A DNA stretch of 64,000 nucleotides, taken from a bacterium (GTDB lineage: Bacteria > Armatimonadota > Zipacnadia > Zipacnadales > UBA11051). Numbering within the stretch: position 1 is the stretch's first letter; each line of letters begins with the position of its first letter. Where the stretch lies: NCBI GenBank assembly GCA_030604405.1, contig JAUVVY010000022.1, positions 1 through 64,000 on the forward strand. Reading direction: 5' to 3'. Shown piece after piece: positions 19,579 through 24,848 of the stretch. The notes beneath the pieces were generated by a model. It was not told the origin of the DNA. It did no database searches and saw only the letters and a list, made by a program, of their open reading frames with translations. A program made the position numbers and the translations under genes.

Positions 19579-20352
19579 GTGATGAGTATGTTGGACCCGG
19601 TGAAGCACAATCCGATAGTGGCCACTTTCCGCGCAATGTTCGGGCCTGCCGCGCTTGCTACGGTTGTGGGCACAGTTATCGCCGCTTCGTATCTGGGTTG
19701 GCGGATGATTCCGATCGGCATGGCAGCATGGGCTTTGGTAGTGTATCTGACGGGTCCGGCGCGGCTGAGAGGCGAAGCGCAGGCCCTGCGGCAGCGGCAG
19801 GAACTGGTGCGGTCATTGCCCCCGCGTTTGCGTCCGCTGGCGGCGCAGATTGCTGACAGCGTCGCCCAGACAAGCGACTTGATAAGCAGTGCCGACGAGA
19901 GCATTCGGATCGTTATTACCGGGCTGGAAGTGGAAATCGAGCAGGTCGGTCTGGACGCGCATCGGCTGCTGGAATCCGCCCGCCGACTCTACAGCTACCT
20001 GCAGGCCAACAGCATCGAACAACTCAACAGCAAAGCCGTATCCCTGGAGGCGCGCATCGAGGCTTGTGATGATGATTTCACCCGGTCGCAGTTGCAGGAG
20101 GCGGCAGCCGAGGTAGCCGGGCAGCAGGAAGCGTACGACGAGCTTGAGCTGCTGCTGCAGCGCACGGAAGCCTCGCTGCACAATCTGGCGTCATCGCTGA
20201 GCAACGTACACTCTCAAGTCGTTAAGCTCGTCAGTGGCGAATTGGTCGCCACGGCGGGTATGAGCCAGGAATCTTTTCAACATCTCGCGGAGGTGCGCGG
20301 AACTGTGGCAGCCCTGCAGGAAGTGATTGACACCAAAGTGCCCGAGGGCTAG
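19579..20352 (+). CDS. Two-TM, coiled-coil protein of a PspA-AAA+ cassette
   Basis: 257 residues, not recognised. Two adjacent hydrophobic helices at about residues 21-38 and 42-60 form an N-terminal hairpin (LATVVGTVIAASYLGW, GMAAWALVVYLTG). The rest is Glu/Gln/Leu-rich and strongly helical (residues 65-250), consistent with a cytoplasmic coiled coil anchored in the membrane. A GTG or an ATG one codon later can serve as start; no clear Shine-Dalgarno. It is followed on the same strand by a PspA homologue (66-base gap) and an AAA+ ATPase (3-base gap), so a membrane partner for PspA is a reasonable inference. Confidence 0.75.
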   Translation: MMSMLDPVKHNPIVATFRAMFGPAALATVVGTVIAASYLGWRMIPIGMAAWALVVYLTGPARLRGEAQALRQRQELVRSLPPRLRPLAAQIADSVAQTSDLISSADESIRIVITGLEVEIEQVGLDAHRLLESARRLYSYLQANSIEQLNSKAVSLEARIEACDDDFTRSQLQEAAAEVAGQQEAYDELELLLQRTEASLHNLASSLSNVHSQVVKLVSGELVATAGMSQESFQHLAEVRGTVAALQEVIDTKVPEG

Positions 20353-20418
20353 GCGAGCTGTGGGTCTTTGACGCATTTTACAGTTGTTGGACTGCATTTT
20401 TCTCAGGAGGCGATAGTG

Positions 20419-21198
20419 ATGTGGGAACGCATAAAGATGATATTTCGTTCGCTGTTTGGCTGGATGGTCCGGGGCGTGGAGAACCCGGAACTGATTCTGC
20501 GCCAGCACATGGATGACCTGCGCCAGAAGGTCCCGGAACTGAACCGTCAGGTCGCCGAGGTAGTCAAGCTGGAGAAGATGCTGCAGATGCAGGCCGACCG
20601 GCTCGAACAGAAGGTGGGGACACTGGAGCAGAATGTTGTGGCGGCGGTCAAGATGGGGGATGAGCACAAGGAGACCGCCAAGACGCTGATCGCCGCGCTG
20701 GAAACGTCCAAGACGGAGCTGGCTGAGACGCAGGCCCAACTCGAACAGGCGAAAGTCAATTCCGAGCGCGCCATGAAGATGCGCGACGCTTACGCCAAGC
20801 GCATCAAGCAGCAGATCAACGAGGCCATGCGGCAGATCTCGCGGGCCAAACGCGCCGAGATCGAAGAGGAAATGTCCTCTTTGATGATGGCCTTTGAGAC
20901 CGGCGATTCGACCGAGGTGCTCGACCGCATGACCGATGAGATTGACGAACGGCTGGCCAGGGCCCAGGCACGTACCGAGGTTGCAAGCGGCGACATCGAG
21001 ACTGAGATGGTTGATGTGGAGGCCGCGGCCACCGAGCTGCAGGCCGAAGAGAAGTACCGCGAGTACCAGCGCCAGCTTGGTCTCGTTGCTGACGAGGAGC
21101 CTGCCGACCGGACGATGGAACCAGTGTCCGGGACCGAAACCGAGCAGGAGCCGCCGGCGATCGAGACCGAAAGCGAAACCGAAACCCAGGAGAATTAG
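20419..21198 (+). CDS. pspA: PspA/IM30 family membrane-remodelling protein
   Basis: 259 residues from ATG, with AGGAGG eight bases upstream. The N-terminus MWERIKMIFRSLFGWMV is an amphipathic helix typical of PspA and Vipp1, followed by NPELILRQHMDDLRQKVPEL and a long alpha-helical coiled coil to about residue 215. The last 45 residues are acidic and low in complexity, an extension beyond the core fold. PspA proteins form ESCRT-III-like rods and rings that stabilise damaged membranes. The AAA+ gene starts three bases downstream. No PspF, PspB or PspC genes are nearby, so regulation differs from the enterobacterial system. Confidence 0.9.
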   Translation: MWERIKMIFRSLFGWMVRGVENPELILRQHMDDLRQKVPELNRQVAEVVKLEKMLQMQADRLEQKVGTLEQNVVAAVKMGDEHKETAKTLIAALETSKTELAETQAQLEQAKVNSERAMKMRDAYAKRIKQQINEAMRQISRAKRAEIEEEMSSLMMAFETGDSTEVLDRMTDEIDERLARAQARTEVASGDIETEMVDVEAAATELQAEEKYREYQRQLGLVADEEPADRTMEPVSGTETEQEPPAIETESETETQEN

Positions 21199-21201
21199 AC
21201 G

Positions 21202-22941
21202 GTGCCTGCGTGCGATCAGCCGGGAAAAGGCGCAGCCAGGGAGCAGTCGCCCTGGCCGGACTGGGCTGAGGAGATCAAACAGAGCTACCTCTCCTCAGCA
21301 TCCTCCGTATTTGTACTCCACGGCGTGCGCGACGATGTGGTCTTCCGCGGCGGCTATGTGCCGCTCAACGCCTTCCTGCACCAGGCTTTTTGCGGCGACA
21401 AGGTCACCGTCTATTATGACCTGGTCGGCGGCTTGACCTTTCCGTCACCGGACGACGAAAGGCAGTTTGAGACCTTCCTCGACGTTTACCAGAATCGCGA
21501 GCGCATCAAGGTTGATCGGCGCGAGAGTTATCGTCCTGAGCTGAGCATTCCGCTGCTGGAGAACTTCCTGACGAGTCGTGATAACGCGGCGGTCATCATT
21601 GACTATGTGGACAAGCTGGCGCCGCGTGAGGAAGAGCGGTTCATGAGCTTCCAGCAGCGCCGGCTGGTGACTACGCTGCGGCGGTGGGCCAACGAACCGC
21701 GCCTGGTGGGTCGCAACAATTTCGTTTTCATGATCGCTGATTCGCTGGCGGATGTGAGCGAGGAGTTGTACGGCCGCACGGGCGCCTCGAAGTTGATAGC
21801 GCTGCCGCTGCCTGATTATGAGGAGCGGCTGGAGTACATCAATTATCAGCTCGGCCGTGGGGAGCAGAATGGCTCCGCGGCGCGCCTGGCGGTATCGCCT
21901 GAGGCCTTCGCCACCAATACCGACGGCCTGAGCAGAATTCAGATATTGCGGCTCATGCAACAGGCTGCCGCCGACGATGAGCCGATCACCGTGCGCGACA
22001 CAACCGAGTACAAGCGCGAGGTGATCGCTTCTGAGATCGGCGACCTGATCTCATTCATGCAGCCGCGCTTCGGCCTCGACGCCGTCGCCGGTGTGGAAAA
22101 GCAAAAGCAGTTGCTGGTCAACACCGCCGAGGCCCTGCAGGAGGGGCGAGTGAAGGTGGTGCCGCAAGGGCTTCTGCTTGTGGGGCCGCCCGGATGTGGC
22201 AAGACCTTCACCATGCAGTGCTTCGCCCACGATGCCGGCATCCCGTTCGTCGAGCTGCGCAATATCTTCAGCAAGTACGTCGGCTCGACCGAATCCAACC
22301 TCGAACGGGTCTTCCACTATCTTGAGGCGATGGCCCCGGTGTTCGTGTTCATTGACGAGTTCGATCAGTCGTATGGCCGCCGCGTTACCTCCGACAGCGA
22401 CAGTGGCGTGTCGCGGCGCGTGTTCGGGATGTTCAATTCATTCCTCAGCGATGAGGTGCATCAGGGCAGAATTCTGTTCGGCGCAGCCACCAATCGGCCT
22501 GACTTGATTGACCCGTCCACCATGCGCGCAGGGCGCTTTGACATGAAGCTGCCGTTCCTGTTGCCCGACGCCGAGGCCCGCGAGGCGATTCTGCGAGTCA
22601 GTCTGCGCAGCCTGGGCATCGCCGCCGACGGACTCGACCTGGCACCGATAGCAGACCAGACAGAAGACTACTCCGGAGCCGACCTGAAGGAAGTCTGCCA
22701 GGTGGCGCAGCGTAACACCGCATTTTTGCGCCGCGATGAAGTGACCATTGACGACCTGGAATTCGCCGTCGCAGATTACATTGCACCCACGGCGGCCAGA
22801 AAAGATGAGATCGAATACATGGAGTTGCTGGCCGTGGCCGCCTGCACCTCGCGGTCAATGTTGCCGGACAAATACCTCGATGACATCGCCTCCGGAGCGC
22901 TTTACGAGCGGCTGCGGCAGTTGCAGTACAGCGTGCACTGA
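21202..22941 (+). CDS. AAA+ ATPase of the PspA cassette
   Basis: 579 residues, GTG start. The C-terminal half is a canonical AAA+ module: Walker A GPPGCGKT (328-335), Walker B VFVFIDE (380-386), sensor Asn in AATNRPD (N431) and an arginine finger in MRAGRFD (R445), with the lid following. The N-terminal 270 residues look like a second, degenerate ATPase-like domain with a Walker-B-like VIIDYVDKL (131-139) but no P-loop. The pairing resembles the ESCRT-III/Vps4 logic in which an AAA+ ATPase disassembles PspA-like polymers. That function is inference from context. Confidence 0.88.
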   Translation: MPACDQPGKGAAREQSPWPDWAEEIKQSYLSSASSVFVLHGVRDDVVFRGGYVPLNAFLHQAFCGDKVTVYYDLVGGLTFPSPDDERQFETFLDVYQNRERIKVDRRESYRPELSIPLLENFLTSRDNAAVIIDYVDKLAPREEERFMSFQQRRLVTTLRRWANEPRLVGRNNFVFMIADSLADVSEELYGRTGASKLIALPLPDYEERLEYINYQLGRGEQNGSAARLAVSPEAFATNTDGLSRIQILRLMQQAAADDEPITVRDTTEYKREVIASEIGDLISFMQPRFGLDAVAGVEKQKQLLVNTAEALQEGRVKVVPQGLLLVGPPGCGKTFTMQCFAHDAGIPFVELRNIFSKYVGSTESNLERVFHYLEAMAPVFVFIDEFDQSYGRRVTSDSDSGVSRRVFGMFNSFLSDEVHQGRILFGAATNRPDLIDPSTMRAGRFDMKLPFLLPDAEAREAILRVSLRSLGIAADGLDLAPIADQTEDYSGADLKEVCQVAQRNTAFLRRDEVTIDDLEFAVADYIAPTAARKDEIEYMELLAVAACTSRSMLPDKYLDDIASGALYERLRQLQYSVH

Positions 22942-23261: not shown

Positions 23262-24068
23262 GTGAGGGAGTTAAGCAACATCTGGCGATGGCGGGAGGCT
23301 GTGTTGCGCCTGGTGGTGCGCAACCTGAAGGTCAGGTACAAGAATTCCGCCCTGGGCTTCTTCTGGTCATTCCTCAACCCCCTGACGCAGGTCATCGTGA
23401 TGACCATTGCCTTCCGCTATATCATGGGTTCGCAGATAGAGAACTACTCGGTGCACCTGTTCACTGTTTTATTGCCCTGGCAATTCTTCGCCCAGGCGGT
23501 CAGCGACGGCTCGGTGTCTGTGGCCGAGAACATTCCGCTGATGAAAAAGTTCCCCTTCCCGCGCATCGTTTTGCCGATGTCAACAATCATCTCCAACTTC
23601 GTCCACCTGGTGCTGGGCCTGACCGTACTCGTAGCCGTCTTTGTGGTGCTGCGGGTCGCCGTCTTGCCCTCTTTTGCCTGGGTGCCGCTGTTTTTGGTTA
23701 TTCAGCTCATGTTCATGCTCGGCGTGCTGATGATGGTCGCGGTGCTGCGGATGTACTACGATGACATCCGCTTCATACTGGAGGCGCTCCTGCGGCTATG
23801 GTTCTTCCTGACGCCGCTGCTTTACAACATCCAGATGGTCATGGAGACCGAGCGGCTGACGGCGCTGCATAAGCAGCTTTATCTCTTACTCAACCCGCTG
23901 ACGCCGCTGATGATCGGCTACCGGTCGGCGCTGTTAGAGGGCGGCGTATGGCCTTTGGCAGATTTCTGGTTCTATCTTGGCGTGTCTGCGGTTATTTCCG
24001 GCCTGGTGTTTCTGGTGGGCCTGGTCGTGTGGCGAAGATACGAATGGCAGCTTCCGGAGTTGCTGTAG
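23262..24068 (+). CDS. wzm: ABC-2 type polysaccharide exporter permease (Wzm/TagG-like)
   Basis: 268 residues, GTG start. The amphipathic N-terminus LVVRNLKVRYKNSALGFFWSFLNPL is diagnostic of the O-antigen/teichoic-acid export permease family, followed by six membrane helices. It forms the channel that exports a finished polysaccharide from the cytoplasm. The next gene, its ATPase, begins at the base after the stop codon. The motif spans residues 17-40. Confidence 0.92.
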   Translation: MRELSNIWRWREAVLRLVVRNLKVRYKNSALGFFWSFLNPLTQVIVMTIAFRYIMGSQIENYSVHLFTVLLPWQFFAQAVSDGSVSVAENIPLMKKFPFPRIVLPMSTIISNFVHLVLGLTVLVAVFVVLRVAVLPSFAWVPLFLVIQLMFMLGVLMMVAVLRMYYDDIRFILEALLRLWFFLTPLLYNIQMVMETERLTALHKQLYLLLNPLTPLMIGYRSALLEGGVWPLADFWFYLGVSAVISGLVFLVGLVVWRRYEWQLPELL

Positions 24069-24848
24069 ATGAACGATGGCCAATACCTCGTAGAGGTAAG
24101 CAATCTGCGCAAGCGTTTCAACGTCCGCCGCGAGCAGGCAGCGACGCTCAAGCGCGTTGTGACGCGGCTGTTCAGACCGTATCCGCACGAGGCGCTCTGG
24201 GCGCTGGAGGGCGTCAGTCTTAGTGTGAAGCGCGGGGAGATCGTCGGCCTCATCGGAGTGAATGGCTCAGGAAAAAGCACGTTGCTGCGCGTCATCGCCG
24301 GCATTTACGTGCCTACCGAGGGCGATGTGGTTGTGAATGGCCAGGTTGGTGCCCTGTTCGAGTTGGAGACCGGTTTCAGTCTCGAACTGAGCGGCATGGA
24401 CAATATTTTCCTCAGCGGGTCGCTCATGGGCTATTCCAGAACGCAGATTACCGAGGCGCTGCCACGTGTGGCGGAGATGGTTGAGCTCGAGGAGTTCCTG
24501 CAAGTGCCGGTGAAAGCCTACTCGTCCGGGATGAAGTTCCGTCTCGGGTTTGGCATAGCCATGGCGTTTGATCCCGAAGTGCTGCTGGTGGATGAGGTTA
24601 TGGCGGCGGCGGACGAGGCGTTTCAGCGCAAGGCCTACCGCAGGTTACGAGAGTTTCGAGATAGTGGCTCGGGCGTTATGCTGGTGTCCCACGAAATGGA
24701 TGCTGTGCGCAGCCATTGCGACCGCGTTATCTGGCTGGCTGACGGCAAGATCCGGGCCGAAGGCTCCACCGACGAAGTCCTGGACGCATATTTGAGCGAG
24801 ATCGGGCCAGAGGCCGGGAATAACAGCAACATCAACAGCGGCAGATGA
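24069..24848 (+). CDS. wzt: Polysaccharide export ABC transporter ATPase (Wzt/TagH-like)
   Basis: 259 residues. Walker A GVNGSGKST (63-71), signature YSSGM, Walker B VLLVDEVMAA and the H-loop VSHEMD. The HEALWALEGVSLSV start of the nucleotide-binding domain is typical of this export subfamily. It ends soon after the nucleotide-binding domain, so the C-terminal carbohydrate-binding domain found in some Wzt proteins is absent. This suggests recognition of the glycan at the lipid or reducing end, as in TagH-like systems. Its stop overlaps the next start (ATGA). Confidence 0.92.
   Translation: MNDGQYLVEVSNLRKRFNVRREQAATLKRVVTRLFRPYPHEALWALEGVSLSVKRGEIVGLIGVNGSGKSTLLRVIAGIYVPTEGDVVVNGQVGALFELETGFSLELSGMDNIFLSGSLMGYSRTQITEALPRVAEMVELEEFLQVPVKAYSSGMKFRLGFGIAMAFDPEVLLVDEVMAAADEAFQRKAYRRLREFRDSGSGVMLVSHEMDAVRSHCDRVIWLADGKIRAEGSTDEVLDAYLSEIGPEAGNNSNINSGR

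Follow-up and report, generated by a model that had tools for sequence, protein, structure and literature searches.

In human cells the coat formed by ESCRT-III is taken apart by Vps4, and PspA is a relative of ESCRT-III; the classical AAA+ neighbour of PspA is PspF, which in the PspF-PspABC system of E. coli is a sigma-54 activator. For the disassembly of the bacterial ESCRT-III polymers (PspA, Vipp1), recent structural studies of PspA rods mention chaperones or PspF as no more than possible agents (PMC11746142). Parts of a 2024 article by Ravi et al. (mSystems, PMC11237479) describe the co-occurrence of PspA with a protein of two AAA+ domains whose N-terminal copy is inactive, propose Vps4-like remodelling as well as chaperone-like roles for such PspA-AAA+ complexes, and report longer operons that include a "Snf7" protein with a transmembrane (TM) segment, an ABC transporter and an OmpA/PBPB protein. 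The literature searched, which included few subscription papers, contained no experimental study of this pairing. Here we analyse a window of 64,000 nucleotides (contig JAUVVY010000022.1, positions 1 to 64,000) from a metagenome-assembled genome of Armatimonadota (WS1/Zipacnadia), which carries a cassette of three genes for a TM-hairpin protein (g1), a PspA (g2) and a tandem AAA+ ATPase (g3). Re-derivation of the coordinates placed all three on the + strand with intergenic gaps of 66 and 3 bp, as a first-pass annotation of the window had reported. That annotation did not recognise the trio, and the pair of PspA with a two-AAA+ protein had been published in 2024 (PMC11237479, in the parts cited above). 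As far as those parts of the article go, the cassette is thus a better-documented instance of a kind already predicted and the basic idea is not new. The new parts are its co-inheritance across the phylum and a short motif in the tail of PspA, which appears new: the main text of PMC11237479 does not name Armatimonadota, and its relevant parts make no mention of the motif.

The ATPase gene g3 (21202..22941) begins with GTG and encodes 579 amino acids. A Pfam search matched PF00004 at E=2.8e-31 over residues 324-451 only and returned no family match for the N-terminal half. An AlphaFold2 (AF2) model, built from 33 orthologues with plasmid-borne relatives left out and having a mean predicted local distance difference test score (pLDDT) of 86.9, aligns over both halves with the tandem AAA+ proteins Rix7, NVL, p97, Drg1 and Pex1/6 (Z about 24-26 over 460-486 residues). 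Since the model aligns with D1-D2 of Rix7, NVL and p97, the N-terminal half is, by fold comparison, an AAA+ domain (D1, residues 18-285, 21253..22056) and not the DNA-binding or unrelated domain for which the first-pass annotation had allowed. D1 has no P-loop, the pattern GxxxxGK being found in 0/33 orthologues, and its Walker B is degenerate, with Tyr, Phe or His mostly standing in place of the glutamate. D2 with its lid (22057..22938; PF00004 and PF17862) carries the Walker A motif GPPGCGKT (residues 328-335, 22183..22206), the pore loop SKYVG (22270..22284) and the Walker B motif VFVFIDEFD (residues 380-388, 22339..22365); K334, D385 and E386, the arginine fingers R442 and R445 and an aromatic residue (Y/W/F) at pore-loop position 359 are each present in 33/33 orthologues. 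The alignment supports a dead D1 tier and a complete D2 tier, in keeping with the P-loop-less N-terminal half and intact C-terminal module described at first pass.

By sequence the nearest AAA+ families are Cdc48, PAN and FtsH. Like Rix7, NVL, p97 and Cdc48, the protein is a D1-D2 tandem of AAA+ folds (Z about 25, 460-480 aligned residues), and it differs from them in its P-loop-less D1, in the lack of an N-terminal adaptor domain, in being bacterial and in its link to PspA. It is not a Vps4, because the elements that would mark one are absent: neither an MIT domain nor a Vps4 C-terminal or beta domain was matched in Pfam, and the model has no inserted strands after D2. Its score against the NCBIfam model for CdvC (78.9 bits) lies below the cut-off of 650. 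The window's g3 also matches PHROG 8638 (E=6e-49), a family of unknown function, and a second, divergent two-part AAA+ paralogue occurs at L111, L233 and L234, in another conserved operon that also encodes unnamed proteins of ~380-430 amino acids.

The middle gene g2 (20419..21198, 259 amino acids), whose ATG start at 20419 is preceded by AGGAGG, encodes a PspA/IM30 protein of the ESCRT-III superfamily, as first annotated. PF04012 (PspA_IM30) scores 67.3 bits against a gathering cut-off of 33.9, and the PspA family profile matches helices 0-5 of the Vipp1 structures 7o3w and 6zvr (E=4e-26 to 3e-23). We surveyed 291 Armatimonadota genomes for the partners, calling g3 by its N-domain profile at E below 1e-40 and taking neighbourhood counts from a simple gene caller on draft genomes. 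Orthologues of g3 are found in 37/291 genomes; PspA stands immediately upstream in about 21 of these 37, intervening genes separate the two in four (G005, G006, G041, G043), and the remaining g3 genomes have PspA at another place or yielded none. The genes are therefore far from rarely adjacent, and the adjacency of PspA and g3 is more than chance. The contiguous g1-PspA-g3 trio occurs in about 10 genomes, in families f1 and f5, while f4 and f6 keep the PspA-g3 pair and lack g1. The order g1, further gene, PspA is seen in G041, G042 and G043 (f11), and in the first two of these it belongs to an operon that also includes g3 and the genes for an ABC permease and an ABC ATPase. Together with loci L094 and L095, this operon resembles the longer operons of Ravi et al., and the ATPase of the published pair shares with g3 a PspA neighbour, two AAA+ domains and an inactive N-terminal copy, a likeness drawn from its description in the cited parts of that article (PMC11237479). 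At one locus (L036, 410-3018, in G002) g1 is followed directly by g3, and PspA is gone except for a tail-like TETETQE in frame with g3; this genome has a PspA with an RTM tail on another contig, and either a deletion or an assembly error may account for the arrangement.

The co-inheritance extends beyond adjacency. A profile of the cassette PspA separates 35 genomes (E <= 1.7e-56) from the next best match at 4e-41, and its distribution follows that of g3 closely: both are present in 33 genomes, PspA only in 2, g3 only in 4 and neither in 252. PspA without g3 is seen in G102 and in G025, where the contig stops shortly after the PspA gene. Because adjacent PspAs made up part of the training set of the profile, the fair part of the comparison is the nine genomes outside that set (G043, G045, G046, G098, G099, G100, G102, G103, G288); g3 is present in 8 of the 9, though PspA is not next to it. 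In a maximum-likelihood PspA tree built without the tails, the PspAs of g3 genomes in this set all fall on one side of a single branch (support 67), and the presence of g3 needs 2 changes. Adjacency and co-inheritance over the phylum support the dedicated PspA-AAA+ pairing suggested at first pass. Fisher tests gave 2e-15 for the motif described below and 1e-36 for the co-occurrence, values that do not measure the strength of the evidence because the genomes share ancestry and adjacent cases had gone into the training of the PspA profile.

In most PspAs from g3-free genomes the C-terminus is a helix with the pattern DxxLxELExRLN, whereas the g3-linked PspAs are without this usual C-terminal helix. 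The C-terminal tail of the cassette PspAs is probably disordered and is poorly conserved save at one point, [RK]T[ML], often followed by x-P; in the window the motif is RTM (21109..21117, in ADRTMEP). Counted over the last 60 residues of each protein, it is present in 21/23 PspAs adjacent to g3 (mean of shuffled tails 0.7), in 5/11 from g3 genomes with PspA elsewhere (0.6), in 1/62 from genomes without g3 (3.3; this one lies outside the final 45 residues) and in 0/6 PspA paralogues (0.3). The other six of the 11 non-adjacent PspAs have RQL, KSL or KSM, and in 3 of the 11 the very C-terminus is GRQL or GRTL. The motif persists in PspAs only ~20-25% identical to that of the window (L092 ends KTM, L094 AGKTMGP), and it is also kept in lineages that have no g1 (f4, f6), so that g3 is the better candidate for its reader. 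Judged from the tail alignment, [RK]T[ML] may be a handle for g3. It was recognised after inspection and then tested on two further genomes, G043 and G102. In G043, whose PspA tail is KSM-GP, the prediction was borne out by a g3 lying in the same orientation at a distance of ~13 kb; G102 is taken up below. A wider motif, [RK][TSQEH][ML], was dropped as a statistic because RQL turns up in ordinary PspAs too, in their last core helix and C-terminal helix. Among other tails, g3 stands alone in G243-G245 (L087, L088, L091) and the PspA of these genomes ends exactly in GRQL or GRTL; the PspAs of G250-G252, which have no g3, end in RNIEV, RNLEI or RNLEL.

The first gene, g1 (19579..20352), starts with GTG and encodes 257 amino acids of an unnamed family. 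Its AF2 model (pLDDT 87.8) is all helical, with a predicted TM hairpin at about residues 23-60 (19645..19758; model helices 23-39 and 43-79) followed by five further helices, and the hydrophobic segments align in relatives; the model is consistent with the coiled-coil membrane anchor of the first-pass annotation. Searches of Pfam and NCBIfam gave no match, a PDB sequence search returned coiled-coil noise only, and Foldseek found nothing with E below 0.02, CdvB2 appearing at E=0.22. Alignment to PspA with hhalign gave a probability of 0.6%, Snf7 was not matched in Pfam, and no match to PspM (Rv2743c) was obtained in NCBIfam or Pfam, where a PspM model may not exist. Relatives of g1 were found in 112/291 genomes, the weakest matches possibly being coiled-coil noise. 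Some stand beside PspA without g3 (L128, L129, L130, L136) and others in OmpA/PBP-ABC-g1-X operons without g3 (L117-L127, L134). Since g1 is absent from f4 and f6 and occurs beside PspA or ABC/OmpA genes without g3, it is a PspA-linked accessory and not a constant part of the cassette, and the earlier suggestion that it recruits PspA is unsupported. The operons of L117-L127 and L134 are widespread and consist of genes for an OmpA/PBP-like protein, an ABC permease, an ABC ATPase, the g1 homologue and an unnamed protein of ~235 amino acids that starts MSIRNVLxKAAGLFVE, with no PspA or AAA+ gene nearby. Around the cassette itself, obg and an MFS gene lie upstream at a chromosomal position conserved in the genus. 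Directly 3' (23262-24848 of the window) are an ABC-2 permease and an ATPase resembling polysaccharide export proteins of the Wzm/Wzt type, a pair kept in the genus only, other families having different genes there.

Taken together, gene order, predicted folds, residue conservation, co-inheritance and the tail motif lead us to favour, with some reserve, a module for membrane remodelling by PspA that has an unfoldase of its own; the first-pass interpretation is in this sense partly supported. PspA would polymerise on the inner membrane, and g3 would form a two-tier hexamer whose dead D1 tier may be structural or substrate-binding. The D2 tier would hydrolyse ATP and pull the PspA chain through its aromatic pore, and such threading would drive turnover of the polymer, in the way that Vps4 acts on ESCRT-III. 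The ATPase would recognise its substrate by the flexible tail of PspA and the [RK]T[ML] within it, and g1, where present, might anchor or nucleate the polymer at the membrane, perhaps with membrane repair as the purpose. The analogy with Vps4/CdvC is one of inferred function: alike are the pairing of an AAA+ protein with an ESCRT-III superfamily polymer, the aromatic pore loop and, as a candidate handle, a short motif that the substrate carries in its flexible C-terminal tail, whereas g3 is a tandem AAA+ with a dead first tier where Vps4/CdvC have one AAA+, it is without the MIT, C-terminal and beta elements of Vps4, and [RK]T[ML] is unlike the MIT-interacting motif (MIM). Only tentatively do we go further and propose that a tandem unfoldase that is not Vps4 acts as its counterpart, reading the PspA polymer through the tail motif in a manner convergent with MIM-MIT.

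Several observations weigh against this remodelling module. Its support is genomic and model-based. The PspAs linked to g3 form in essence a single clade; there are only 2 independent contrasts, and common descent by itself could account for the shared occurrence of motif and g3. The prediction made from the motif failed in G102 (96% complete), which has a clade PspA with an RQL tail and no g3; six distant members carry only the looser forms RQL, KSL or KSM; and G044 and G243-G245 have g3 without the cassette PspA clade. Most PspAs are without an AAA+ partner, and PspA binds and slowly hydrolyses ATP itself (PMC11746142). Beyond Armatimonadota the distribution of g3 is known from plasmids and viral contigs: full-length relatives are carried by Paenibacillaceae megaplasmids (L113-L116; N-domain E 2e-32 to 2e-34) and by a viral contig (L236; 2e-31). 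Their fetched flanks contain no PspA or g1, and no relative of the cassette PspA was detectable on any plasmid. Hence g3 does not imply PspA, the architecture is older or more mobile than its link to PspA, and the ATPase family has other clients too.

These relatives without PspA also speak for the main rival, in which g3 is a quality-control unfoldase for damaged or orphan membrane proteins, recruited or positioned by PspA and g1 as scaffolds. The nearest families, Cdc48, PAN and FtsH, are general unfoldases, and the chaperone-like roles proposed in the cited parts of PMC11237479 point the same way. The three-gene cassette, however, encodes no peptidase, and the conserved motif on the PspA tail suggests that PspA is contacted directly, though an adaptor role would fit it too; on balance we regard this explanation as unlikely, yet a serious one. 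We find it more doubtful still that the motif serves PspA autoinhibition or another partner and merely hitch-hikes with the clade, the shared operon reflecting a common stress response. That the data come from one clade with few independent contrasts, and that G102 keeps its RQL tail without g3, would be expected if this were so, but the motif survives at ~20-25% PspA identity in an otherwise unconserved tail and where g1 is missing (f4, f6), and the usual C-terminal helix is missing in the same PspAs.

Two other roles for g3 were considered and rejected. The D2 half matches IetA profiles at E=2.7e-32, which could speak for an anti-phage defence module with an IetA-like ATPase, but the NCBIfam IetA score (104.7 bits) is far under the cut-off of 510, there is no IetS-type protease partner, and the cassette keeps its place after obg and the MFS gene in the genus; a defence role is very improbable. 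That g3 is a PspF-like enhancer-binding regulator of cassette transcription would suit the classical position of PspF beside PspA, but it is contradicted by the domain content and barely credible: Pfam and NCBIfam searches found no sigma-54 activation and no helix-turn-helix or other DNA-binding family in g3, as the first-pass annotation had noted, D2 falls among the classical AAA families, and the N-terminal half is AAA+ by fold.

A co-inherited tandem unfoldase and a three-residue candidate handle on its putative substrate make the predicted analogy with Vps4 directly testable. If it is true, it would be a case of convergence, in which the ATPase serving a bacterial ESCRT-III polymer is something other than Vps4.

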